Shown here: positions 2,676 through 13,010 of the stretch, piece after piece
Layout of the letters: each line of letters begins with the position of its first letter
How positions within the stretch are numbered: the stretch's first letter is position 1
Source of the DNA: Flavobacterium psychrophilum
GTDB lineage: Bacteria; Bacteroidota; Bacteroidia; Flavobacteriales; Flavobacteriaceae
Direction: 5' to 3'
DNA: 13,010 nucleotides
Assembly: GCA_945861915.1 (NCBI GenBank)
Contig: CAMAWK010000048.1
Location: forward strand, 1 to 13,010
Notes under the pieces: generated by a model
The model's database searches: none
What the model saw: the letters and a program-made list of their open reading frames with translations, nothing else
What the model was told of the DNA's origin: nothing
Position numbers and translations under genes: made by a program

Positions 2676-4103
2676 TTATACATTAATAGTCATTTCTACA
2701 AAAATACTTTTCGGTGATTCGCACAACGAGCAACAATAATCATCTGGTAAATCTTGAAATAAAACATCCTTTTGAATCCCTTGAATGCTATCGCCAAATT
2801 CCGAATTGTAAATCGTTAAACAATCAGGACATTGATGCACTACTTGCTCTGTTTTTTCTTTTTTACGATTGGAACCACTCACTTCAAGTACTGAATTTCC
2901 TAAATCGCCAAAGTATTTTTTACTCAATTCAATTAAAATATTCGGTAATTCTAATTTATCTACATCTTGTGCCAAAACGAGGTATTCTCTGGTATTTGGA
3001 TCGAAGTTTTTGGCGTACAAAACATTAAAAGTAGCTCTAATTTTTAAGGATTCTAATGCGGCTGGTGTTTCGTTTCTTTCGATTACAATCGATGTAAAAT
3101 AATGCCCTTCTCGGTTATAATCCGAAATGCCAAAGGTTAGTCCGTAGGTACTAATGTCTGATTGATCGAGTGTTCGAACCAAAAAAGTTTTCAAATTCAA
3201 TGCCCATTCTTCAGAAACGGGTAAATGCCAATTGAGTTCCAAAAGCGAGTGGCGAACATTGATTCCTCGTTTTCCTAAAAATTTTTCCCAGTCTAATTTT
3301 CGTGGTTTTGGGATTCCTTTTATAATGAAAGATTTCCATGGTGTGATGCAAATTTTACCAATTTTACAATCAAAACACAAATCTATCATTTCCTTTAAAA
3401 AATTCAAATCATAGAGATTGTTTCTCCAATACAACCCTAACCAATACTGATCAATACCTAGTTTTTTCATTCCTTCGTAATACGGAAAAGGATAAAAAGG
3501 AATATTCAAAGGTTTGTCTATCGTTCTATTATTGGTATCTAATTCGTGGTTTACTAATTGAAAAATAGTCTCAACTGAATCAGGTTCTTCGTCTAATATT
3601 TTCTCGATGGCATAATATACTTCGGCAATGTTCCAGCTATAAATAAGCACGGGATATTGCTCCATTTTCCCCCATTTGGGTAATCGAATGTATACAAACC
3701 AATAATCCTCGTGATCAGAAGCTATAAAGTTAACATGACCCGTAAAAAGCGGTACTAACTGCTGCTTTGGGTCGGTAATATTTACTTTTAATGAAGGTTG
3801 TTGTTTGAATTGTTCTAAAACATACAACAATTTATTTCCGGTAAGCCAAGGAGTATTTCTAAATAAATCGGTCGAAACATAAGAACTAACAATGTTTTTA
3901 CCACTTTTTTCATTGGGATACACAATGATGTGTTTGCCAATTTTTTCAATTCCTGTAGTTTTGAACTCTTTGGGCAAAATTATATCTTGTCTAGAACCAA
4001 ACGAAATTTCTTTGAGTCCATTTTCAAGACAAGTATTCACAATTTCGAGTAATTCTCCCGGCGAAATAACGCCTCCTTTGATGATTAATCGTGTTAATTC
4101 CAT
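2676..4103 (-). CDS. Rubredoxin-tailed protein with nitrite/sulfite-reductase-like repeats
   Basis: This 475-residue cytoplasmic protein has no signal peptide. The C-terminal ~50 residues form a rubredoxin domain: C425-P-D-C428 followed by L-T-I-Y, then DLPDDY and C458-S-L-C461, the four iron ligands in standard spacing. The rest resembles a nitrite/sulfite reductase. Residues 7-46 (IKGGVISPGELLE...GSRQDIILP) look like a first ferredoxin-like half domain, and residues 245-295 (KIGKICITPWKSFIIKGI onward) like a second. The cysteine pattern that binds [4Fe-4S]-siroheme (C-x5-C ... C-x3-C) is absent: outside the rubredoxin only Cys24, 243, 246 and 252 are seen. It is therefore unlikely to reduce nitrite itself. 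It follows the nitrate reductase gene on the same strand after 130 bases, so a role as an electron carrier or assembly partner is inferred. The rubredoxin call is firm; the rest is inference. Confidence 0.85.
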   Translation of the reverse strand: MELTRLIIKGGVISPGELLEIVNTCLENGLKEISFGSRQDIILPKEFKTTGIEKIGKHIIVYPNEKSGKNIVSSYVSTDLFRNTPWLTGNKLLYVLEQFKQQPSLKVNITDPKQQLVPLFTGHVNFIASDHEDYWFVYIRLPKWGKMEQYPVLIYSWNIAEVYYAIEKILDEEPDSVETIFQLVNHELDTNNRTIDKPLNIPFYPFPYYEGMKKLGIDQYWLGLYWRNNLYDLNFLKEMIDLCFDCKIGKICITPWKSFIIKGIPKPRKLDWEKFLGKRGINVRHSLLELNWHLPVSEEWALNLKTFLVRTLDQSDISTYGLTFGISDYNREGHYFTSIVIERNETPAALESLKIRATFNVLYAKNFDPNTREYLVLAQDVDKLELPNILIELSKKYFGDLGNSVLEVSGSNRKKEKTEQVVHQCPDCLTIYNSEFGDSIQGIQKDVLFQDLPDDYCCSLCESPKSIFVEMTINV

Positions 4104-4110
4104 GTTTTAT

Positions 4111-4236
4111 GGGTTTTGAGTCTTGGGTTTAGGGTCTGTGGTTCTGGGTCTTGGGTTTAGGGCTAAGTTGCTAAAAAAATTTACCTAGTACATAAAACCT
4201 CAAACCCAATACCTAATACCTTACACCTAAAACCTA
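4111..4236. repeat. Intergenic GGGTTT-type repeat, partly inverted
   Basis: The spacer between the nitrate reductase and the rubredoxin-tailed gene is filled by short G/T-rich units on its left side and C/A-rich units on its right. A 15-base unit GTCTTGGGTTTAGGG occurs at 4120-4134 and 4148-4162. The right part (4193-4235) is made of AAACCT/ACCTAAT/ACCTAAAACCT units that are roughly the complement, with AAACCCAA at 4202-4209 able to pair with TTGGGTTT of either left unit. The transcript could fold into a long imperfect hairpin between the two cistrons. Confidence 0.6.
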
Positions 4237-7200
4237 TTTATTTTTTGCTAAAATTTCTTTCACTTCAGTTTTACAACTACCACAACCGAGTCCAGCTCCA
4301 GTTGTTTTACATAATTCGGTAAAATTGGTTACCCCGCTTTTGATACATTCTTCGATATTTCCAACGCCCACTTGGCTGCACGAACAAACCAATTTCCCTA
4401 GCACAGGTTTGGCATTCGAGCTTCCTCTTAAAAGTGTATTTCGTTTATCCGAAAGTTCGATTTTGCTCTCGATTAAGGTTTTGAATTCGGCAAATTCATT
4501 TTTATCACCCATCAAAATAGCGCCTACCAACAAGTCATTTTTTACAATACATTTTTTGTAATAACGCTGTCTTAAATCGGCAAAAATAATTTCTTCGTAG
4601 GAATCGTCATTTTTAGGAACTTCAATTTCGCCAATACTACACAAATTGATATCTTCCAATTTCAAGATATTCATCAAAACCGAACCTTTGTAAAAACTGC
4701 TAATATCGCCCGCTAAATAGTTAGCCAAAATATCCGCTTGTTCTTCAGCTGCAGACGTAATCCCGAATAATTGATTGTTAAATTCCGCAATTTCGCCAAT
4801 GGCATAAACAGACGGATTCGACGATTGCAAATATTGATTTACTTTCACGCCGCGTCCACAAGCAATACCCGATTCTTTGGCAAGTTCAATATTAGGAATC
4901 GTTCCAATTGTAAATACAATGGCATGGGCATGAATAATTTTGCCACTTTTTAATTCAATTTCTAATTCGTTGGGATTTTCAGTGTCAAAAACAGTACTGA
5001 CTTCATTATCAAAATAAATTTGAATGTCACGATTCTGAACTTCTTCGGCTAATATTTTACTCGAAATCAAATCCAATTGACGCTCCATTAATCGAGAAGC
5101 TCTTTGTACAATCGTGATTTTAACTTTTTTGTGTTTCAAAGCAGCGGCTAATTCTAACCCTAGCAATCCACCACCTACCAAAACAACGTGTTGTTCTTCG
5201 GGTGGTAAATTGGTATTGTCTAGATAATCTTTCAATCGATCAGCATCCGATTTTCTTCGCATGGTGAATCGTCCCGGCAAATGCAGTTGCGCATCTTCTG
5301 GAACAAAAGGACGACTTCCTGTAGCTAAAATCAAGGAATCAAATGAGTGACTTTCGCCATTACTATCCAGAATTATTTTGTCGTTTGTATTGACTTTATC
5401 AATCGGAACCTGCGTTTTTAACGTAATATCTAATTTTGATAAAGCTTCGTCTTTAATTTTTTGAAGTTGCTCCCACGACAATTCAGCCGTAACATATTCA
5501 GGCAACAAAACCCGATTGTAAAAAGGATTTTCTTCGTTTGAAAACACCACAATTTCATCTGTTGTATTGATTTCGCGATAATTTTGAATAAATCGGAAAG
5601 CAGCTGCACCAGCACCCACCACAGCTATTTTTTCAAAAGGTTTTACATATTTCGCTATCGAAACAGTGGTGTATTTAAAATCGGGTTCTTTAGAAATCGG
5701 GTCAACAATAGTGTTGGTTAAATTATTGGTTCGGTTGAGGTCATTTTCTAGTTGTTTGCCCCAATGCATAGGCAGGAAAACCACTTTTTCTCTAATCGTG
5801 TCCGATACTTTCGTTTTTACTCGAACAGTTCCGTTTTTGCTCGTTACGACCACAATATCGCCATTTTCTATTTTTAATTTATAGGCATCAATTGGGTTTA
5901 TTTCCAATACGGGACTCGGAATGTGAGTCATCAATCGAGATACTTTTCCTGTTTTGGTCATCGTATGCCATTGATCCCGAATTCGTCCTGTGGTTAAAAT
6001 AAAAGGAAACTCAGCATTCGGCGGTACCGAAGTGTTTTCTATGGAAGTTGGAATATTAAAAATGGCTTTTTGCGAAGGCGTAAAGAATTTTCTATCGGCA
6101 AATAAGCGTGGCGTTCCTGGATGTCCGTAATCAGGAACAGGCCATTGAAAAGTACCTTCGTTTTTTAAACGGTTATAATTCAAAAATGAAATATCGATGT
6201 TAGAGTTTTTGGTCATCAAGCAATATTCCTTATACACATCTTCGGCGGTATTGAAATTGAAACCGCTAAATTTCATTTTTTGGGCAAATTGAATCAAAAT
6301 TTCCACATCCGAAAGTGCTTCACCTGGAGGATTAATTCCTTTAGGTAAATACGAAATCCGTCTTTCGGAGTTGGTCATCGTTCCCTCTTTTTCTAACCAA
6401 CCAGCTGCTGGTAATAATAAATCGGCAAATTTTGCGGTGTCGGCATTGTGTGAAATGTCCTGAACTACAACAAATTTCGCATTTGCCAAGGCTTTTTCTA
6501 CTCTTCTAGAATCGGGTAAGCTCACCATTGGATTGGTACAAATAATCCAAATGGCTTTCATTTTTCCAGATTCCAGCGCATCAAACATTTCAGTAGCTGT
6601 GAGACCTGGTTTTTCGGAAATTTCAGGAACTCCCCAAAAATCAGCCACTTCCTGACGATGAGTTGGATTATTTAATTCCTTGTGAACAGCCAACAAATTC
6701 GCCATGCCGCCCACTTCTCTTCCGCCCATTGCGTTGGGTTGTCCTGTTAAAGAAAAAGGACCAGAACCAGGTTTTCCAACATGTCCTGTAAGTAACGAAA
6801 GGTTGAGTAAAGCGGTATTTTTGTCAACACCAATAGCACTCTGGTTGAGTCCCATTGCCCAAAGGGAAATAAATCCTTTGGCTTTTCCTATAATATCTGC
6901 AGCTAATTTTATTTCATCTACTGAAATACCGCACAATTTAGATGCTTTTTCAAATGAACTCGCAAGAACTAATTCTTTGTATTTTTCAAAATTTTCGGTG
7001 TGGTTTTTTATAAAGTCCTTGTCGGCATACCCTTTTTCAATCAGTCTTTTTGCCAAAGCATGATACAAAACAATATCGGTTCCGGGTATAATTTGCAAAT
7101 GTAAATCGGCTGCCAAAGCGGAATCGGTTTTGCGAGGATCAACTACAATTATTTTTACTTTCGGATTTTTTTCTTTGTGTTGTTCTAATCTTCTAAACAA

Positions 7201-7746
7201 AATAGGATGACACCAAGCCGGATTGGCTCCTGTGATTAAAAACGTATCTGCCAACTCGATGTCATCGTAAGCAATTGGTACAGAATCTTCCCCAAAGGTT
7301 TTTTTGTAACCCGCCACTGCCGAACTCATACACAAACGGGAGTTTGTGTCTATATTATTAGTTTTCAAAAATCCTTTTACTAATTTATTAACCAAATAAT
7401 ACTCTTCGGTAAGGCATTGTCCTGAAATATAAAAACCAACACTGTCTGGACCGTGTTTTTGAATCATCGCTGTAAATACTGCTGCAGCACGATCTAAACC
7501 AGTATCCCAACTCACGCGTTCTTTAGGATGCGATTTGCTCCAACGCATTTCTGGATATAGAATTCTATCTGATGTGTCATTCGCAACATAATGAAGATTC
7601 ATTCCTTTAGAACAAAGCATGCCTCGATTCACGGGGTGATTCGGGTCGCCGGCTACTGTTACTCCGTTTTTAGGGTCGGTTTTTACAATAATTCCACAGC
7701 CTACACCACAATAGGAACAGGTAGTTTTTATTTCTGGATGCTGCAT
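4234..7746 (-). CDS. nasC: Assimilatory nitrate reductase fused to NirB-like FAD/NAD module and BFD [2Fe-2S] domain
   Basis: This 1170-residue cytoplasmic enzyme is predicted to reduce nitrate to nitrite with NAD(P)H. Residues 1-700 are a molybdopterin nitrate reductase of the NasA/NasC/NapA type: [4Fe-4S] ligands C10, C13, C17 and C45 with K47 just after, and C139 in R-L-C-M-S-S as the expected Mo ligand. The dinucleotide-binding C-terminal part (TTGRIRDQWHTMTKTG onward) follows. Residues 704-1100 resemble the N-terminal half of NirB/NasB: FAD loop VGAGAAAF (710-717), PFYNRVLLPEY, ATGSRP, NAD loop VGGGLLGLE (857-865), and YAIGE (981-985) as in NirB. The C-terminus is a BFD-type [2Fe-2S] domain with C1121-x-C1123 and C1155-x2-C1158. 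No Tat or Sec signal is present. In Bacillus and Klebsiella the catalytic and electron-transfer parts are separate proteins; here they are one chain. The gene symbol refers to the catalytic part only. It is divergent from the Crp/Fnr gene and leads the minus-strand cluster. Confidence 0.93.
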   Translation of the reverse strand: MQHPEIKTTCSYCGVGCGIIVKTDPKNGVTVAGDPNHPVNRGMLCSKGMNLHYVANDTSDRILYPEMRWSKSHPKERVSWDTGLDRAAAVFTAMIQKHGPDSVGFYISGQCLTEEYYLVNKLVKGFLKTNNIDTNSRLCMSSAVAGYKKTFGEDSVPIAYDDIELADTFLITGANPAWCHPILFRRLEQHKEKNPKVKIIVVDPRKTDSALAADLHLQIIPGTDIVLYHALAKRLIEKGYADKDFIKNHTENFEKYKELVLASSFEKASKLCGISVDEIKLAADIIGKAKGFISLWAMGLNQSAIGVDKNTALLNLSLLTGHVGKPGSGPFSLTGQPNAMGGREVGGMANLLAVHKELNNPTHRQEVADFWGVPEISEKPGLTATEMFDALESGKMKAIWIICTNPMVSLPDSRRVEKALANAKFVVVQDISHNADTAKFADLLLPAAGWLEKEGTMTNSERRISYLPKGINPPGEALSDVEILIQFAQKMKFSGFNFNTAEDVYKEYCLMTKNSNIDISFLNYNRLKNEGTFQWPVPDYGHPGTPRLFADRKFFTPSQKAIFNIPTSIENTSVPPNAEFPFILTTGRIRDQWHTMTKTGKVSRLMTHIPSPVLEINPIDAYKLKIENGDIVVVTSKNGTVRVKTKVSDTIREKVVFLPMHWGKQLENDLNRTNNLTNTIVDPISKEPDFKYTTVSIAKYVKPFEKIAVVGAGAAAFRFIQNYREINTTDEIVVFSNEENPFYNRVLLPEYVTAELSWEQLQKIKDEALSKLDITLKTQVPIDKVNTNDKIILDSNGESHSFDSLILATGSRPFVPEDAQLHLPGRFTMRRKSDADRLKDYLDNTNLPPEEQHVVLVGGGLLGLELAAALKHKKVKITIVQRASRLMERQLDLISSKILAEEVQNRDIQIYFDNEVSTVFDTENPNELEIELKSGKIIHAHAIVFTIGTIPNIELAKESGIACGRGVKVNQYLQSSNPSVYAIGEIAEFNNQLFGITSAAEEQADILANYLAGDISSFYKGSVLMNILKLEDINLCSIGEIEVPKNDDSYEEIIFADLRQRYYKKCIVKNDLLVGAILMGDKNEFAEFKTLIESKIELSDKRNTLLRGSSNAKPVLGKLVCSCSQVGVGNIEECIKSGVTNFTELCKTTGAGLGCGSCKTEVKEILAKNK

Positions 7747-7873: not shown

Positions 7874-7970
7874 AATAATATAACTGACTCAAACAGCTAT
7901 TTATTAAAAAGTAACATTATGTGTAAAAGAGTTTTATTAAACTCATTTTAAAATGTAAAAATAAGTATTT

Positions 7971-7988
7971 TTACGTATAAATACGTAA
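7971..7988. promoter_or_regulatory. Candidate Crp/Fnr-type operator, copy A
   Basis: TTACGTATAAATACGTAA is an inverted repeat with two perfect 8-base arms and a 2-base centre. Read as ACGTA-N4-TACGT it has the 5-4-5 geometry of FNR sites, with G five bases from the symmetry centre as in FNR and CRP sites. It lies 52 bases before the regulator's ATG and 26.5 bases (centre to first base) before a -7 box at 8006, where an activator could replace a -33 element. It is also 233 bases from the nitrate reductase start on the other strand. Autoregulation by the adjacent Crp/Fnr protein is inferred from position and symmetry. Confidence 0.65.
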
Positions 7989-8005
7989 TTTGTTGATTTT
8001 TTTTA

Positions 8006-8013
8006 TAAATTTG
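8006..8013 (+). promoter_or_regulatory. Candidate -7 promoter box for the Crp/Fnr gene
   Basis: TAAATTTG matches TAnnTTTG exactly and lies 26 bases before the ATG at 8040. No TTG is present at the normal -33 spacing. The palindrome at 7971-7988 occupies that position instead, which fits a promoter that needs an activator. Confidence 0.5.
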
Positions 8014-8039
8014 TTTCAATTCATTTTAAGAGATTCATT

Positions 8040-8744
8040 ATGAAAGAAAATCTAGCCCATTGCCATAGTTGTTTGAATGAAAATTGTTTTGTTAAAAAAC
8101 ACATTCATTTAGAGAAAATGAAAGTATATATCCAAAAAAAACGCAGTTTTGTTTGTAAAAAAGGACAGCAGTTTATCATTGAAGGTGCTCCAATTCAGGG
8201 ATTGTATTTTATTTTTGACGGAAAAGCAAAAACTGTAAAAACGGGAATTAATGGCAGGGAACAAATCGTTCGACTGACCAAAAGTGGCGACACGGTTGGC
8301 TTTAGAGGTTTTGGAACGAGTAATCGCTATTTGATTGGTGCTTATGCTTTAGAAGATACGCTTTTATGTAATTTTAGCAACGAAGATATGCTCGATATTC
8401 TTCATAATGTGCCAGAATTTACTTTTGATTTAATGCTTTTTTATGCTGAAGAATTAAATAAAAGTGAAAATAATATTCGAAAAATCGCCCAAATGAATGT
8501 AAGGGAACGGGTGATTGACACCTTATTATATATTCATCGAAAATTTGGACAAAACAATGGCATGATCGAATTGGATTTATCCAGAAAAGAAATTGCTGAT
8601 TTTGCTGGAACTACTGATGAGCAAGTGATTCGAGTGATTTCGAGTTTAAAAAAAGAATCGCTAATTACCTCTTCAGGAAAAAAAATAGGTCTTTTAAATA
8701 TCGATAAACTCAAGTCCGAAATCAAAGAGCACAAATATCTTTAG
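8040..8744 (+). CDS. Crp/Fnr-family transcription regulator with FNR-like cysteines
   Basis: This 234-residue protein has the standard layout: an N-terminal cysteine segment, a cyclic-nucleotide-type beta-roll sensor domain (about 30-120), a dimerisation helix (about 125-160) and a C-terminal winged helix-turn-helix (about 175-225). The N-terminus reads C8-H-S-C11-x4-C16, and a fourth cysteine, C110 in 'YALEDTLLC', aligns with the conserved internal cysteine of E. coli FNR (C122 in ALETSMVCEIPF). An oxygen- or NO-labile [4Fe-4S] cluster is therefore plausible, although FNR has a C-x2-C-x5-C spacing. C39 is an extra cysteine. The recognition helix reads D193-E194-Q-V-I197-R198: Glu and Arg, which contact the central G:C pair in CRP and FNR, are kept, while FNR's Ser is Ile. 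The gene is divergent from the nitrate reductase and precedes the porin-Nrt genes, so it is the likely local regulator of nitrate assimilation. Confidence 0.92.
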   Translation: MKENLAHCHSCLNENCFVKKHIHLEKMKVYIQKKRSFVCKKGQQFIIEGAPIQGLYFIFDGKAKTVKTGINGREQIVRLTKSGDTVGFRGFGTSNRYLIGAYALEDTLLCNFSNEDMLDILHNVPEFTFDLMLFYAEELNKSENNIRKIAQMNVRERVIDTLLYIHRKFGQNNGMIELDLSRKEIADFAGTTDEQVIRVISSLKKESLITSSGKKIGLLNIDKLKSEIKEHKYL

Positions 8745-8797
8745 TTTTTATAAACTTTCCATAATTACAATAGGTTCTACTTTTGTATATATATTTT

Positions 8798-8843
8798 GCC
8801 ACGAATTCACGAATATAAAAATTAGTGAATTGGTGGCTTTTTC
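8798..8843 (+). terminator. Hairpin followed by T-run, probable terminator of the regulator gene
   Basis: GCCACGAATTCAC (8798-8810) pairs with GTGAATTGGTGGC (8825-8837) with one mismatch (8803 with 8832), leaving a 14-base AT-rich loop and followed by T-rich sequence from 8838. It would separate the regulator transcript from the porin-nrt transcript. Hairpins built on 'GCCACGAATTCAC' also look like a dispersed repeat, so this could be a mobile repeat serving as a terminator. Confidence 0.6.
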
Positions 8844-8873
8844 TTTAAAAGCATTTTTTCAATTCCTTATCTT

Positions 8874-8890
8874 TTAGTTATAAATACGTA
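8874..8890. promoter_or_regulatory. Candidate Crp/Fnr-type operator, copy B (degenerate left arm)
   Basis: TTAGTTATAAATACGTA shares the 12 bases TATAAATACGTA with copy A, and its left half-site is AGTTA instead of ACGTA, so one arm is intact. It lies about 195 bases upstream of the porin ATG. No good -7 box follows at the spacing seen for copy A, so it may be an auxiliary site. Confidence 0.45.
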
Positions 8891-9032
8891 TTTTTTTAAA
8901 AATGCCTATTTCGCTATTTATTGATTATCAAATTATTAAAAATTTAATCTGCTATAAAACAGTTTTTAAACTGCTATTCATTGCTTTTTTTGAGTATTAA
9001 AAAGATATTTATCGGTGGTAAAATCCATAAAC

Positions 9033-9048
9033 TACGTACAAATACGTA
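9033..9048. promoter_or_regulatory. Candidate Crp/Fnr-type operator, copy C
   Basis: TACGTACAAATACGTA has two perfect 6-base inverted arms around CAAA, the same ACGTA-N4-TACGT core as copy A. It ends 28 bases before the porin ATG at 9077. Depending on which -7 element is used, it either overlaps the promoter (box at 9051) or sits 26.5 bases (centre to first base) upstream of a weaker TAATTTAA at 9067, the same spacing as copy A. Confidence 0.6.
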
Positions 9049-9050
9049 CT

Positions 9051-9058
9051 TACATTTG
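9051..9058 (+). promoter_or_regulatory. Candidate -7 promoter box for the porin-nrt operon
   Basis: TACATTTG matches TAnnTTTG exactly, 18 bases before the ATG at 9077, and directly follows operator copy C. No TTG lies at the -33 spacing. The close contact with the palindrome would suit repression; the alternative box at 9067-9074 would suit activation but leaves almost no leader. Confidence 0.4.
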
Positions 9059-9076: not shown

Positions 9077-10519
9077 ATGAAGATTATGTTAAACATTACT
9101 AAGCAATTACAAAAAATCGAAGGATTCAAAAAAGGAAAAACAGCATCAATTCGTTTTTCAAAATCAATTTTTTTAGGAATAACAGCAATCATTTTTGGTC
9201 AAAATGTTGCGAATGCTCAGTTGACAGCCACTGGACAAATTAGAGAAAGAACCGAGGCGAGAGGCGGACAAGGAACTTTGCTTCAAGATGGAAAAAGAGG
9301 TTCGTTATTTAACACTCAACGAACCAGATTAAATGTTGGTTTTACAGGTTATAGATACAAGGTGTATGCTTCGTTACAAGATGTACGTGTTTGGGGACAA
9401 GACGCTTCTACTATAAACAGAAATACTATTGATGCTAATGATGGAATTATGTTTCATGAAGCTTGGGGTGAAATTATGTTGATTGATACCATTAGTACCA
9501 TTCAAAATTTATCCTTAAAAATTGGGCGTCAAGAAATTGCTTATGATGATCAAAAAGTTCTTGGAAGTTTAGATTGGTTGCAACAAGCCAGAAGACATGA
9601 TGCGATTGTTTTAAAATATGCCAATAAAGGTTGGACTGCCGATTTTGGGGTGGCTTTTAATCAAAGAAAAGAGTTGAATTCTGGTACAACTTATGAGGGT
9701 TGGGCAGGACCAGCTGCTACCGTTTATCCAGCTGGAACAAACGGAATAGGTCATGCATACAAATCGTTTCAATATGCATATATAGGTAAGAAATTTTTCT
9801 TTGGTGATATGTCATTTTTATTCTTCAAAGATGATTTTAGTAAATTTACTGGACCTGCAAATGCTCCAACAGCATTTATAGAAGGTGTAAATGCAAGAAC
9901 CACTACTGGTTTTTATTACAACCTAAACCCAACTAGAAAATTAAACTTGAATGGTAGTTTATATTACCAAGGAGGAAAAGACAAACTAGGGAAAACTATT
10001 AGTGCAAAATTGGGTTCACTAACCGCAACCTATCAAGTAAGCCGAAAATTATTCTTAGGAGCTGGTGCCGATTATTTGTCAGGAACAGATGGAACAACGG
10101 CGGCTTCTCAAAACAATCAATTTGATCCTTTGTACGGAACACCACACAAATTCTGGGGATACATGGATTATTTTTATGTAGCTAGTCCGTTTGGTGCTCA
10201 AGGATTGCTAAATTATTTTGTTAAAGCCAAATACAATGCAAATGATAATTTGAGTTTATTTTTAGATGTTCACGGATTTGAATCAGCGGCAGATCTTGCT
10301 GGAAATTTAGATAAATATCTTGGTACTGAGGTAGATTTAAGAGTCAATTATAAATTCACCAAATTGATCAATATCGAAGGGGGTTATTCTGTTATGGCAG
10401 CTAAAAACACTATGGCTTCTGCAGCGGTTAAAAATGTTGTAAACCCAAAATTGACAGCTCAATGGGCGTATGTCATGTTGAATATTACACCTAATTTCTT
10501 GAATACTAAAAAAATGTAA
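9077..10519 (+). CDS. Outer-membrane porin, alginate-export family, in nitrate uptake operon
   Basis: This 480-residue protein is predicted to be an outer-membrane beta-barrel of the alginate-export (AlgE-like) family. The start at ATG 9077 gives a long signal peptide with a basic n-region, a hydrophobic run (SIFLGITAIIFG) and cleavage after NVANAQ (residue 48). A second ATG at 9086 is also possible. Family-typical segments follow the signal: QRTRLNVGFTGY, SLQDVRVWGQDAST, LKIGRQEIAYDD and DWLQQARRHDAIVLKY. The remainder is alternating aromatic/polar strands with glycine-rich turns, as in a barrel. It lies 57 bases before nrtA on the same strand, with no terminator between them. A role in passing nitrate or nitrite across the outer membrane is therefore inferred; family members elsewhere export alginate or take up other small anions and molecules. 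Confidence 0.85.
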   Translation: MKIMLNITKQLQKIEGFKKGKTASIRFSKSIFLGITAIIFGQNVANAQLTATGQIRERTEARGGQGTLLQDGKRGSLFNTQRTRLNVGFTGYRYKVYASLQDVRVWGQDASTINRNTIDANDGIMFHEAWGEIMLIDTISTIQNLSLKIGRQEIAYDDQKVLGSLDWLQQARRHDAIVLKYANKGWTADFGVAFNQRKELNSGTTYEGWAGPAATVYPAGTNGIGHAYKSFQYAYIGKKFFFGDMSFLFFKDDFSKFTGPANAPTAFIEGVNARTTTGFYYNLNPTRKLNLNGSLYYQGGKDKLGKTISAKLGSLTATYQVSRKLFLGAGADYLSGTDGTTAASQNNQFDPLYGTPHKFWGYMDYFYVASPFGAQGLLNYFVKAKYNANDNLSLFLDVHGFESAADLAGNLDKYLGTEVDLRVNYKFTKLINIEGGYSVMAAKNTMASAAVKNVVNPKLTAQWAYVMLNITPNFLNTKKM

Positions 10520-10576: not shown

Positions 10577-11791
10577 ATGAAAAAAATATCAATAAAATTT
10601 AAAAATTTGCTTGTAGCTTTTATGCTAACAATTGCAACTGGTTTTACTGCAATAAATGCTCAAGAACCTGTAAAATTAGGATTCATTCCCTTAACCGATT
10701 GTTCGCCTTTAGTAATGGCAAAGGAACTCGGATTGTTCAAAAAATATGGGGTTGAAGTGGTTTTAACCAAAGAAACTTCTTGGGCTAATGTTCGTGATAA
10801 AATCTTAACAGGTGAATTAGATGGTGCGCACTGCTTGTATTCTATGCCGTTTTCAGTGTATACTGGTGTGGGTGGAAAAGAAGGTTCTTTGATGAAAATT
10901 GCGATGATGCTCAACGTAAATGGTCAAGCAATTACGCTTTCAAAGGATTTTTGTGGTAAAGTAGGTTTCAAACAAATGAATAAAGTAACGCCTGTAGTTT
11001 CTGCAAAATTAAAAGCCGAGAAAGAAGTTACTTTTGCCATGACTTTCCCAGGAGGTACGCACGATTTATGGTTGCGTAACTGGATGTCACTAGCGGGATT
11101 AAACCAAAAAGCGGTAAAAATTATCACGATTCCTCCTCCGCAAATGGTAGCCAATATGAAAGTAGGAAATATGGACGGATACTGTGTGGGGGAACCTTGG
11201 GGTGGTGTTGCTGCTAAACAAGGAATTGGTTTTACTCAAATTGCCACGCAGGATATTTGGAAAGATCACCCAGAAAAAGCATTGGTTATTAATAACGAAT
11301 TCAGTACCAAACACAAGGCTGATTTGGTTAAAGTTATGAAAGCCGTAATGGAAGCCTGCAAATGGTTAGACTCTCCTGCCAATCGGAAAAAAGCTGCCGC
11401 CATTATCGGAAAAGCACCTTATGTAAATGCGCCTGCCGAAGTAATAGAAAACAGGTTAATGGGTAATTATGACTTGGGTTGTAGCCTCGGAACCGAAATT
11501 TACGACAACGATTATATGTTATTTCACAAAGGAGGAGCCGTTAATTTTCCTCGCAAATCGCACGGAATTTGGGCAATGGCACAATTTGTACGATTTGGTT
11601 ATTTGAAAGAAGAACCAAATTACAAAGCAATTGCAGAAAAAATTGTAATGGATGATTTGTACAAAGAAGTAGCTGCTAGTATGAAAATAAAAGTACCAGC
11701 AGATGATATGAAACCCTTTTCTCTTACAATGGATAAAACGGTTTTTGATCCAAACAACCCGTCGGCTTATTTAAAAGTAGTTAAAAAGTAA
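10577..11791 (+). CDS. nrtA: Nitrate ABC transporter, periplasmic substrate-binding protein NrtA
   Basis: This 404-residue protein would bind nitrate (possibly nitrite) in the periplasm and deliver it to NrtB. A Sec signal peptide ends at A-I-N-A-Q29. There is no lipobox cysteine at the cleavage site, so unlike the lipid-anchored cyanobacterial NrtA it should be soluble. Family signatures are clear: LGFIPLTDCSPLVMAKELGL (about 35-54), PGGTHDLWLRNW (158-169), PPPQMVANMKVGNMDGY (186-202), GEPW (205-208) and HPEKAL (230-235). His162 and Lys233 lie in the segments that supply nitrate contacts in cyanobacterial NrtA; I infer their equivalence from motif context. The protein is slightly shorter than cyanobacterial NrtA. 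It sits between the porin and nrtB. A cyanate or bicarbonate-binding homologue (CynA/CmpA) is the main alternative, but the adjacent nitrate reductase favours nitrate. Confidence 0.92.
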   Translation: MKKISIKFKNLLVAFMLTIATGFTAINAQEPVKLGFIPLTDCSPLVMAKELGLFKKYGVEVVLTKETSWANVRDKILTGELDGAHCLYSMPFSVYTGVGGKEGSLMKIAMMLNVNGQAITLSKDFCGKVGFKQMNKVTPVVSAKLKAEKEVTFAMTFPGGTHDLWLRNWMSLAGLNQKAVKIITIPPPQMVANMKVGNMDGYCVGEPWGGVAAKQGIGFTQIATQDIWKDHPEKALVINNEFSTKHKADLVKVMKAVMEACKWLDSPANRKKAAAIIGKAPYVNAPAEVIENRLMGNYDLGCSLGTEIYDNDYMLFHKGGAVNFPRKSHGIWAMAQFVRFGYLKEEPNYKAIAEKIVMDDLYKEVAASMKIKVPADDMKPFSLTMDKTVFDPNNPSAYLKVVKK

Positions 11792-11952: not shown

Positions 11953-12831
11953 ATGTCAAATAACACACTAACAATAAATGATTTAGAACAAAATACAGCC
12001 GTAGTTTCTGACGCGAATGTAGCGAGTTCTAAAAACAACGAAAAAACTACAGCATTTCTAAATGGAATACTCGAAAAATCGAAATCGATTCTTTTTGCAG
12101 GGCTGGGATTATTTATTTTTGGCGGTTTATGGGAAGCGTTGAGTGCTTATACCGAAAACGCTTTGCCAACTCCTATAGCTACGCTCACTGTTTTGAAAGA
12201 AATGATTTTAGATCCTTTCTATGATTATGGACCCAATGATAAAGGAATTGGATTGCAATTGTTCAGCTCGTTAAAAACGGTTTTAAGCGGATTTTTATTT
12301 GGTTCATTAGTCGCTATTCCGCTTGGAATTTTGATTGGAGCCAACAAAATTTGCAAACTTGTATTTTATCCTATCGTTCAATTATTGAAACCTGTTTCGC
12401 CTTTGGCTTGGTTTCCAATTGGATTAGTGGTTTTTAAAGATACAGGAATGGCAACAGTTTTCATTGTATTTATTACATCGTTATGGTCTACTTTAATCAA
12501 CACTTCTTTTGGTGTTGCTTCGATTCCACAAGATCATAAGAATGTTGCCAAAGCCTTTGGATTCTCGAAAAAAAGGTATTTAACTAAGATTTTAATTCCG
12601 TATAGTTTACCACATATCATAACAGGTTTGCGTTTGAGTATCAGCGTAGCTTGGTTGGTAATTGTAGCAGGCGAAATGCTTTCTGGTGGATCAGGAATTG
12701 GATTTTTTGTTTGGGACAGTTGGAATGCATTAAGCCTCGAAAGAGTAATATCGGCAATTATCATCATTGGAGTAGTAGGTTTATTATTAGATAGACTATT
12801 CACTTATTTTGAAAACAAAGTAGCGTACTGA
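11953..12831 (+). CDS. nrtB: Nitrate ABC transporter permease NrtB
   Basis: This 292-residue inner-membrane protein would form the nitrate channel of the importer as a homodimer. It has a polar ~40-residue N-terminal tail, then hydrophobic segments near 45-65, 104-130, 136-160, 165-190, 228-242 and 262-285, the usual six for this family. The cytoplasmic EAA loop that docks the ATPase is visible as AKAFGFSKKRYLTKILIPYSLP (199-220), with the conserved G at 203. 'LKPVSPLAWFPIGLVVF' (145-161) and 'GEMLSGGSGIGFFVWDSWN' (240-258) are typical of NrtB/CynB/SsuC-type permeases. The ATG at 11953 gives a normal family length. It follows nrtA and precedes the ATPase. Confidence 0.93.
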   Translation: MSNNTLTINDLEQNTAVVSDANVASSKNNEKTTAFLNGILEKSKSILFAGLGLFIFGGLWEALSAYTENALPTPIATLTVLKEMILDPFYDYGPNDKGIGLQLFSSLKTVLSGFLFGSLVAIPLGILIGANKICKLVFYPIVQLLKPVSPLAWFPIGLVVFKDTGMATVFIVFITSLWSTLINTSFGVASIPQDHKNVAKAFGFSKKRYLTKILIPYSLPHIITGLRLSISVAWLVIVAGEMLSGGSGIGFFVWDSWNALSLERVISAIIIIGVVGLLLDRLFTYFENKVAY

Positions 12832-12948: not shown

Positions 12949-13010
12949 ATGAGTTATTTAGAAATAAAAAATTTAGAAATATCCTTTCCAACTCCAAAAG
13001 GAAAATACAT
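12949..13010 (+). CDS. NrtC/NrtD-like nitrate transporter ATPase (N-terminus only, cut by window)
   Basis: Only about 20 codons are present, reading MSYLEIKNLEISFPTPKGKY. 'LEIKNL..SF' is the standard first strand of an ABC ATPase domain, and 'F-P-T-P-K-G-x-Y' resembles the start of NrtC/NrtD. Position directly after nrtA and nrtB supports the call. The Walker and signature motifs lie outside the window, so whether it is NrtD-like (ATPase alone) or NrtC-like (with a binding domain) cannot be told. Confidence 0.75.
   Translation, partial: MSYLEIKNLEISFPTPKGKY

Follow-up and report, generated by a model that had tools for sequence, protein, structure and literature searches.

We analysed a stretch of Flavobacterium psychrophilum DNA, 13,010 nucleotides long and hereafter called the window, in which the palindrome ACGTA-N4-TACGT lies on both sides of a gene for a Crp/Fnr-family regulator (234 amino acids; 8040–8744, plus strand). 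In a preliminary description the palindrome had been proposed as a new operator class of this regulator in an autoregulated nitrate regulon. Our comparisons show the palindrome to be real and conserved and support its role as a nitrate-regulon operator, with binding itself predicted. Very probably, judging from the sequence comparisons, it is the operator of the NarHK/NarRR system of Bacteroidetes, and the FNR-type gene would lie below that system in a cascade resembling FixLJ-FixK. Computation established where the sites are, that they are conserved, which genes they precede and that they follow the response regulator rather than Crp/Fnr.

A pattern search of the window gave exact ACGTA-N4-TACGT cores at 7973–7986 and 9034–9047. 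In 2000 dinucleotide shuffles the mean number was 0.0045 and no shuffle held two, and the wider form TAMGTA-N4-TACKTA was present three times against a mean of 0.001. Both perfect copies of the preliminary description, TTACGTATAAATACGTAA at 7971–7988 and TACGTACAAATACGTA at 9033–9048, were found as placed. The accompanying statement that the window holds no other copy has to be corrected, because an overlapping one, TAAGTATTTTTACGTA at 7962–7977, had been missed. We call the latter copy A; copy B (TACGTATAAATACGTA, 7972–7987) lies between the divergent nasA-like and Crp/Fnr genes, and copy C (TACGTACAAATACGTA, 9033–9048) lies upstream of the porin-nrt operon; no strand is assigned to the copies. 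The right half-site of copy A is common to copy B, and together they form three half-sites with a 10 base pair (bp) period (7962–7987). The overlapping pair was observed before the regulator at 18 of the 19 loci from Flavobacterium and close metagenome-assembled genomes (L001–L019; L and G numbers denote our loci and genomes), L015 having one copy. Copy C aligned in 16/16 relatives, with TAnnTTTG after it (alignment of the window with 16 relatives, which left out L013, L014 and L019). The middle TACGTA of such three-half-site arrays is self-palindromic and can pair either way (the window, L010, L088 and L091–L094); two alternative dimer positions or a chain of regulators are possible.

The preliminary description had counted a third copy, with one degenerate arm. 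This element (TAGTTATAAATACGTA, 8875–8890, no strand assigned) has a single intact half-site and two mismatches to ACGTA-N4-TACGT. At up to two mismatches, 7 matches were counted in the window where 3.41 are expected, and degenerate matches of this kind are therefore near the chance level. Lone TACGTA half-sites recur around 8875 in the 16 aligned relatives but the dyad does not, and we rejected this element as a third operator; it is probably not an operator on its own.

The palindrome was followed in 80 relatives' loci with the Crp/Fnr regulator, taken from one scan, and in 17 further loci without it; the loci are related to each other, and the site counts are therefore not independent. Allowing one mismatch, ACGTA-N4-TACGT was observed 146 times in 168 kb of intergenic DNA as against 26 times in 1376 kb of genic DNA (window and 80 loci). 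The wider consensus is TAMGTA-N4-TACKTA, one arm often being TAAGTA, and 295 of its 300 exact matches in the window and 97 loci were intergenic, mostly upstream of nitrate genes. A scan for 5-bp dyads with spacers of 2–8 bp, excluding AT-only dyads, ranked the palindrome's own registers first (80 loci). The genes downstream of the sites include Crp/Fnr, nasA, nrtA, porin, nirB, siroheme-type methylase, narK-type transporters and moeA, as well as the globin operon, a NarL/FixJ-type response regulator and some unnamed genes. This search in relatives had been suggested in the preliminary description, whose proposal of a nitrate-regulon operator is supported: sites precede the regulator gene, the porin-nrt operon, nasA, nirB, narK and others. 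An exact site lies directly upstream of the Crp/Fnr gene in 59/81 sequences (window and 80 loci), and 13 of the 17 exact sites assigned to the response regulator gene lie 43–52 bp upstream of it. Triple half-site arrays with a 10-bp period are present before the Crp/Fnr gene, nrtA and narK.

The profile of the 300 sites reads TAMGTAW-N2-WTACKTA, that is, two inverted heptamers with a 2-bp spacer and TAC-N10-GTA over 16 bp; the sites had been chosen by 12 fixed positions, and only the inner and outer bases were free. The 5-4-5 symmetry described earlier is correct, but a 7-2-7 site of the NarL type fits equally.

We compared the occurrence of the site with that of two candidate regulators in 249 genomes of the family and 296 of the class (sampling groups around G001, Flavobacterium gawalongense; minimum completeness 95), scoring the best 3–12 candidates per genome for NarRR, Crp/Fnr and nirB. 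NarRR denotes the NarL/FixJ-type response regulator, whose orthologues were 53–100% identical and whose paralogues were at most 43% identical in a 41-genome search. It was present in all 41 of those genomes, which came from a selection of 43 among the 80 loci with Crp/Fnr, the genomes of the other two not being covered. In the family sample, NarRR and nirB were present in the identical 65 genomes. The Crp/Fnr orthologue (E below 1e-75) was present in 48 genomes, all among these 65, and seven more genomes had matches of paralogue level only (E about 1e-41). Within 400 bp before nirB, an exact site was observed in 47/48 genomes with Crp/Fnr and in 17/17 without it. The spacing was strict: N4 was found in 64 of the 65 genomes, any other spacer from 0 to 12 in at most 2, and the mean for mononucleotide shuffles (200 shuffles) was 0.035. 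In all 17 genomes without Crp/Fnr, the stretches around NarRR also hold exact sites, at nirB, nasA, nrtA, narK or NarRR.

No nirB-positive genome without NarRR was present among the 249, and therefore class-level genomes were used as the control. There, nirB was found at E 1e-200 or better in 18/296 genomes, and NarRR orthologues were taken at no less than 46% identity to the Reichenbachiella protein and E 2e-56 or better. Among the eight genomes with NarRR, three of which (G001, G140 and G283) are also in the family sample, the best site upstream of nirB was exact in five, had one mismatch in one and had two mismatches in two. None of the ten genomes without NarRR had an exact site before nirB; G414 had a one-mismatch site at −231, and the other nine had 3–4 mismatches at best. 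Four genomes with NarRR (G452, G477, G495 and G567) had no Crp/Fnr match at E 1e-35, and the stretches around NarRR in G452 and G495 hold two exact sites each. In Reichenbachiella (L165), a one-mismatch site, read by eye, abuts TAgtTTTG before nirB.

The reverse situation was observed in G365, G414 and G435, where Crp/Fnr relatives of 45–51% identity, matched by identity and not placed by tree, lie beside nrt, nasA and nirB. In these relatives the N-terminal cysteine layout is the same, and the helix reads SEQxIR. None of the three genomes yielded a NarRR orthologue, and the stretches read contained no exact site. This is the outcome that the preliminary description had named as refuting its proposal, namely loss of the motif in relatives in which the regulator stays beside the nas/nrt genes. 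In some class-level genomes (loci L217, L219, L220 and L221), the nas/nrt/nir genes are accompanied by two Crp/Fnr paralogues; a NarRR orthologue is absent, as are exact sites in the stretches read, which we read as an alternative mode of nitrate-gene regulation.

A NarRR representative consists of a receiver domain (Response_reg, 108.8 bits) and a GerE/LuxR-type DNA-binding domain (GerE, 70.6 bits). Its best match among solved structures (PDB) is E. coli NarL (138.8 bits), and its DNA-binding domain is closest to EsrB and then FixJ. The recognition helix is KRTAEVHRFNLMKK with close variants in 46 sequences; aligned as [AVIT]E[VT]HR[FY]N, it shares E-V-H-R-x-N with FixJ (VEVHRAN), compared with VKVHVKH in NarL. 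NarRR lies near a histidine kinase with a PilJ-type sensor, and a representative kinase has PilJ (51.2 bits), HisKA_3, HATPase_c and PAS domains. The motif N-x-[AS]-G-x-Q-R was observed in 31/38 kinases and not found in 7; a G-x-x-R motif has been named for nitrate sensors (in the part of PMC8199190 available to us). The same part describes, as narHK/narRR, nitrate sensors of Bacteroidetes that lack HAMP and GAF, in some cases contain PAS, and have a NarL-like regulator as partner (PMC8199190). The kinase belongs by these features to the PilJ/NarX type of nitrate sensor, and nitrate binding is predicted. In many of these clusters, a gene next to that of the sensor kinase encodes a DUF4202 protein (e.g. 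L077:979–1560), which could be part of the nitrate pathway.

The window itself has no NarRR gene within its 13,010 nucleotides. In three family genomes where coordinates were compared (G001, G140 and G283), the distance between NarRR and Crp/Fnr is ∼6–10 kb, and for the window narRR and its kinase are predicted some kilobases past base 13010. Among named relatives, those closest to the window's regulator are from Flavobacterium (88–89% identity).

The placement of the sites was compared with TAnnTTTG, which we take to be the −7 promoter box of Bacteroidetes, counting overlapping sites apart. In the window, the candidate box of the Crp/Fnr gene is TAAATTTG (8006–8013, plus strand), 34 bp after the start of copy B, and that of the porin-nrt operon is TACATTTG (9051–9058, plus strand), 18 bp after the start of copy C. 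The 18-bp distance recurs at 17/19 Flavobacterium porin sites. At the Flavobacterium Crp/Fnr gene, the distances are 35 bp (19/78, one being L080) and 45 bp (18/78), and 34 and 44 bp in the window. Elsewhere the last TA of the site is the TA of TAnnTTTG (17/25 entries for nirB, 13/32 for narK and 29/78 for Crp/Fnr outside Flavobacterium). The box is in register with the site at 50/65 nirB promoters, of which only 5/50 have TTG at the −33 position. At the response regulator gene, the box follows the start of the site by 23–25 bp (12/17), and at nrtA (53/71) and globin (16/20) it starts 15–17 bp before the site. In nrtA and globin promoters such as L024:10958 and L029:10900, the operator is seen just downstream of the box, a placement in which it possibly has a blocking arrangement; many nrtA promoters also have a TACTTA, TACGTA or TAGGTA half-site just upstream of the box. 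Taken together, such placements are compatible with activation of one set of genes and blocking of another.

Several observations weigh against the assignment to NarRR. Perfect co-occurrence of NarRR and nirB in the 249 genomes means that the site might track nirB in some other way, and separating the two rests on the 18 class-level genomes. Within these, G452, G567 and G477 have NarRR and yet only sites with one or two mismatches before nirB; G512, scored as NarRR-negative, is borderline (a 42% match at E 1.7e-52, away from nirB). No exact site was seen in the surroundings of NarRR in G477, G567 and Reichenbachiella (L165), in the stretches read. One of the 65 family nirB genes (G215) lacks an exact site and has TAGGTATTACTACGTA at −49, and 22/81 sequences (window and 80 loci) have no exact site assigned directly before the Crp/Fnr gene. 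The site overlaps TAnnTTTG, precedes it by 34–45 bp or follows it, so that no single mode of action fits all genes. In E. coli NarL, the DNA-contact lysines are K188 and K192. They are not conserved in NarRR (K188 is replaced by E and K192 by F or Y), and hence the E. coli recognition code does not transfer.

Genome-wide counts of TAMGTA-N4-TACKTA belong with these adverse points. The median was 8 (control 3) in genomes with both NarRR and Crp/Fnr and 1 (control 2) in genomes with neither, but just 5 against a control of 3 in those with NarRR only, and three or more matches were present in 63 of the 184 genomes without NarRR. In the five highest of the latter, many matches, but not all, are repeat-like TACGTA-N4-TACGTA. 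We rejected these counts as proof of a link to the regulator, since they are too noisy and give no clean separation. The clusters of TACGTAG-N2-CTACGTA in NarRR-less genomes were likewise rejected as support, as the two arrays read out are repeats between convergent gene ends. Five loci (L185, L190, L192, L195 and L197) show non-coding tandem repeats of 145–147 bp, each with TACGTA-N4-TACGTA and resembling repetitive extragenic palindromic elements; the two arrays that were read out (L195 and L197) lie between convergent gene ends. On one side the repeats have an odhB-like gene (identified by eye) and on the other a NarL-family regulator gene, and the genomes concerned lack NarRR.

We infer binding by NarRR, nitrate as the signal and the sign of regulation as follows. 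Nitrate would be detected by a membrane-bound histidine kinase whose sensor is of the PilJ/NarX type; the kinase would phosphorylate the NarL/FixJ-family regulator, a dimer of which would bind TAMGTAW-N2-WTACKTA in a 7-2-7 layout with the FixJ-like half-site TAAGTA/TACGTA. Its presumed targets are nirB, nasA, narK, the nrt/porin operon, siroheme and molybdopterin genes, narRR itself and the Crp/Fnr gene. Copies A and B of the window may serve the Crp/Fnr gene, the divergent nasA or both, and copy C the porin-nrt operon. The FNR-type protein would then act downstream in the cascade, as FixK does under FixLJ. It is also conceivable, if rather doubtful, that one NarL/FixJ-type regulator with an operator built into the Bacteroidetes promoter sorts nitrate genes into induced and repressed ones by phase and feeds the FNR-type protein for oxygen control. 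At nirB, the regulator might then replace the −33 contact from within the promoter spacer, and at nrtA and globin the operator just after the box might block.

The preliminary description had the Crp/Fnr protein itself bind ACGTA-N4-TACGT and regulate its own gene. The site lies directly before that gene in all of L001–L019 and in most other loci, the 5-4-5 symmetry and the G five bases from the centre suit an FNR-type dimer, and each of the 48 family genomes that carry the orthologue has at least three pattern matches. Against these points stands the two-way comparison, in which 17/17 genomes lacking the orthologue keep the site before nirB and three genomes that have Crp/Fnr relatives but not NarRR show no exact site in the stretches read, and on this ground we rejected the protein as the binder. 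The recognition helix is also unfavourable: it reads [ED]EQVIR in 82 aligned sequences, and a specificity rule stated in the part of PMC1274295 at hand pairs the helix glutamate with an A directly after the G of the operator, where the palindrome has T. We consider this explanation very unlikely; the Crp/Fnr gene is predicted to be a target of the operator and not the source of its binder, and 'regulated by NarRR' fits better than 'autoregulated'.

It appears very unlikely that both proteins bind, with NarRR at every site and a Crp/Fnr dimer at some of them, in competition or cooperation at the Crp/Fnr promoter and at nrt. The higher median copy number with Crp/Fnr (8 versus 5 with NarRR alone) and the three-half-site arrays before the Crp/Fnr gene, nrtA and narK would suit such sharing. 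However, the triple arrays before nrtA and narK are also present without Crp/Fnr (L088, L091, L092, L093 and L094), the Crp/Fnr helix does not fit the motif, and the gap in copy number may partly reflect the Crp/Fnr gene's own sites. We regard as extremely unlikely a non-regulatory repeat or a promoter element of an alternative sigma factor. In 50/65 nirB promoters the last TA overlaps TAnnTTTG, which looks promoter-like, and the TACGTA-N4-TACGTA units 145–147 bp apart in some NarRR-less genomes suggest a repeat. The 16-bp palindromic symmetry with its strict 4-bp spacer, the distances to TAnnTTTG that differ by gene class and the concentration of sites at nitrate genes argue otherwise, as does the position of the two arrays read out, between convergent gene ends.

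The Crp/Fnr protein belongs to the FNR-type oxygen-sensor class by its four cluster-ligand cysteines, iron-sulphur binding being predicted; the window protein has C8, C11, C16 and C110, and among 82 aligned sequences these are present in 79, 81, 82 and 72, respectively. A different dyad, ATGA-N6-TCAT, fits the glutamate-to-A rule and is a lead only for this protein's own operator. It occurs 36 times in intergenic and 27 times in genic DNA of the window and 80 loci, none of the intergenic ones being in the window, as compared with 3 and 12 times in the 17 loci without Crp/Fnr. In a genome scan, 6/8 genomes were above the reversed-pattern control and 2 were not, and the three Crp/Fnr-only genomes have no shared dyad (the region upstream of nirB in G365 was not covered). 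At loci with Crp/Fnr, the form YATGA-N6-TCATR was seen upstream of porin, moeA, NapD-like, molybdoenzyme and cytochrome genes (L024:15360, L028:431, L031:3254, L032:15203, L060:19911 and others).

The remaining genes of the window are as follows; all open reading frame starts are mechanical, and distances to start codons are therefore approximate. On the minus strand, divergent from the regulator, lies a gene for a 1170-amino-acid protein (4234–7746) in which a NasA-like nitrate reductase is joined to a NirB-like NAD(P)H/BFD region. This flavin/BFD fusion is followed on the same strand by a gene (2676–4103) for a rubredoxin domain with a weak NIR_SIR_ferr nitrite-reductase half domain, below Pfam's cut-off. 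On the plus strand, the porin-nrt operon starts with an outer-membrane porin of the Alginate_exp family (9077–10519, start codon uncertain), which is followed by an NrtA-like substrate-binding protein of a nitrate ABC transporter (10577–11791; NMT1_2) and the permease of such a transporter (11953–12831; NtrB equivalog, 228 bits against a cut-off of 209).

In the open-licence PMC literature, we found neither an operator for Bacteroidetes nitrate sensors and regulators nor a report of the motif. The sensors and regulators themselves have been catalogued (PMC8199190, as far as available to us), and the palindrome adds a testable operator and a target list for nitrate sensing in Bacteroidetes. Nitrate regulons in a dominant marine and freshwater group would become predictable from sequence. 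The case is also a warning not to attribute a motif simply to whichever regulator gene lies closest.

The narHK/narRR pairs of PMC8199190 agree with the present system in sensor class and NarL-like partner. In the clusters studied here, narHK/narRR often has nirB, a gene of Rieske type (NirD-like) and one for DUF4202 as neighbours; the available part of that account gives no operator or regulon. Among the FNR, CRP, HcpR2 and NssR operators, the FNR-like ones share the 5-4-5 layout and that of FNR shares the G five bases from the centre (PMC1274295, in the part at hand), but the palindrome has T, not A, beside that G, and its sites do not track the Crp/Fnr gene.

Two systems of the NarL/FixJ family come closer. 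The operator of E. coli NarL and NarP is TACYYMT-N2-AKRRGTA, in 7-2-7 layout. The present system resembles it in TAC-N10-GTA over 16 bp and in a nitrate-sensing kinase, and NarL is the best solved match of NarRR. In contrast to it, position 4 of the heptamer is G instead of a pyrimidine, and the targets are mainly assimilation genes. The E. coli NarL operator proper was rejected as an identity for the palindrome, because position 4 is G (conserved at nirB promoters) and position 3 is A or C.

The FixLJ-FixK cascade shares the E-V-H-R-x-N helix of the NarL/FixJ family and sites before a Crp/Fnr gene. FixL is a haem sensor; the kinase paired here is of the PilJ type. According to the part of PMC4999443 available, FixJ binds TAAGTAATTTCCCTTA at fixK, and in-vitro selection gave GTAMGTAG. 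The alphaproteobacterial FixJ box thus resembles the palindrome in its half-site (TAAGTA/GTAMGTAG) and 16-bp 6-4-6 layout (PMC4999443, same part). TAAGTA is already known for FixJ, and the new operator class that had been proposed for Crp/Fnr is not supported. Unlike the FixJ box, the operator described here is a near-perfect palindrome and serves many nitrate-assimilation genes. The comparison suggests that a second phylum has a nitrate-sensing equivalent of the logic by which FixLJ feeds FixK, with a two-component system acting on a Crp/Fnr protein.

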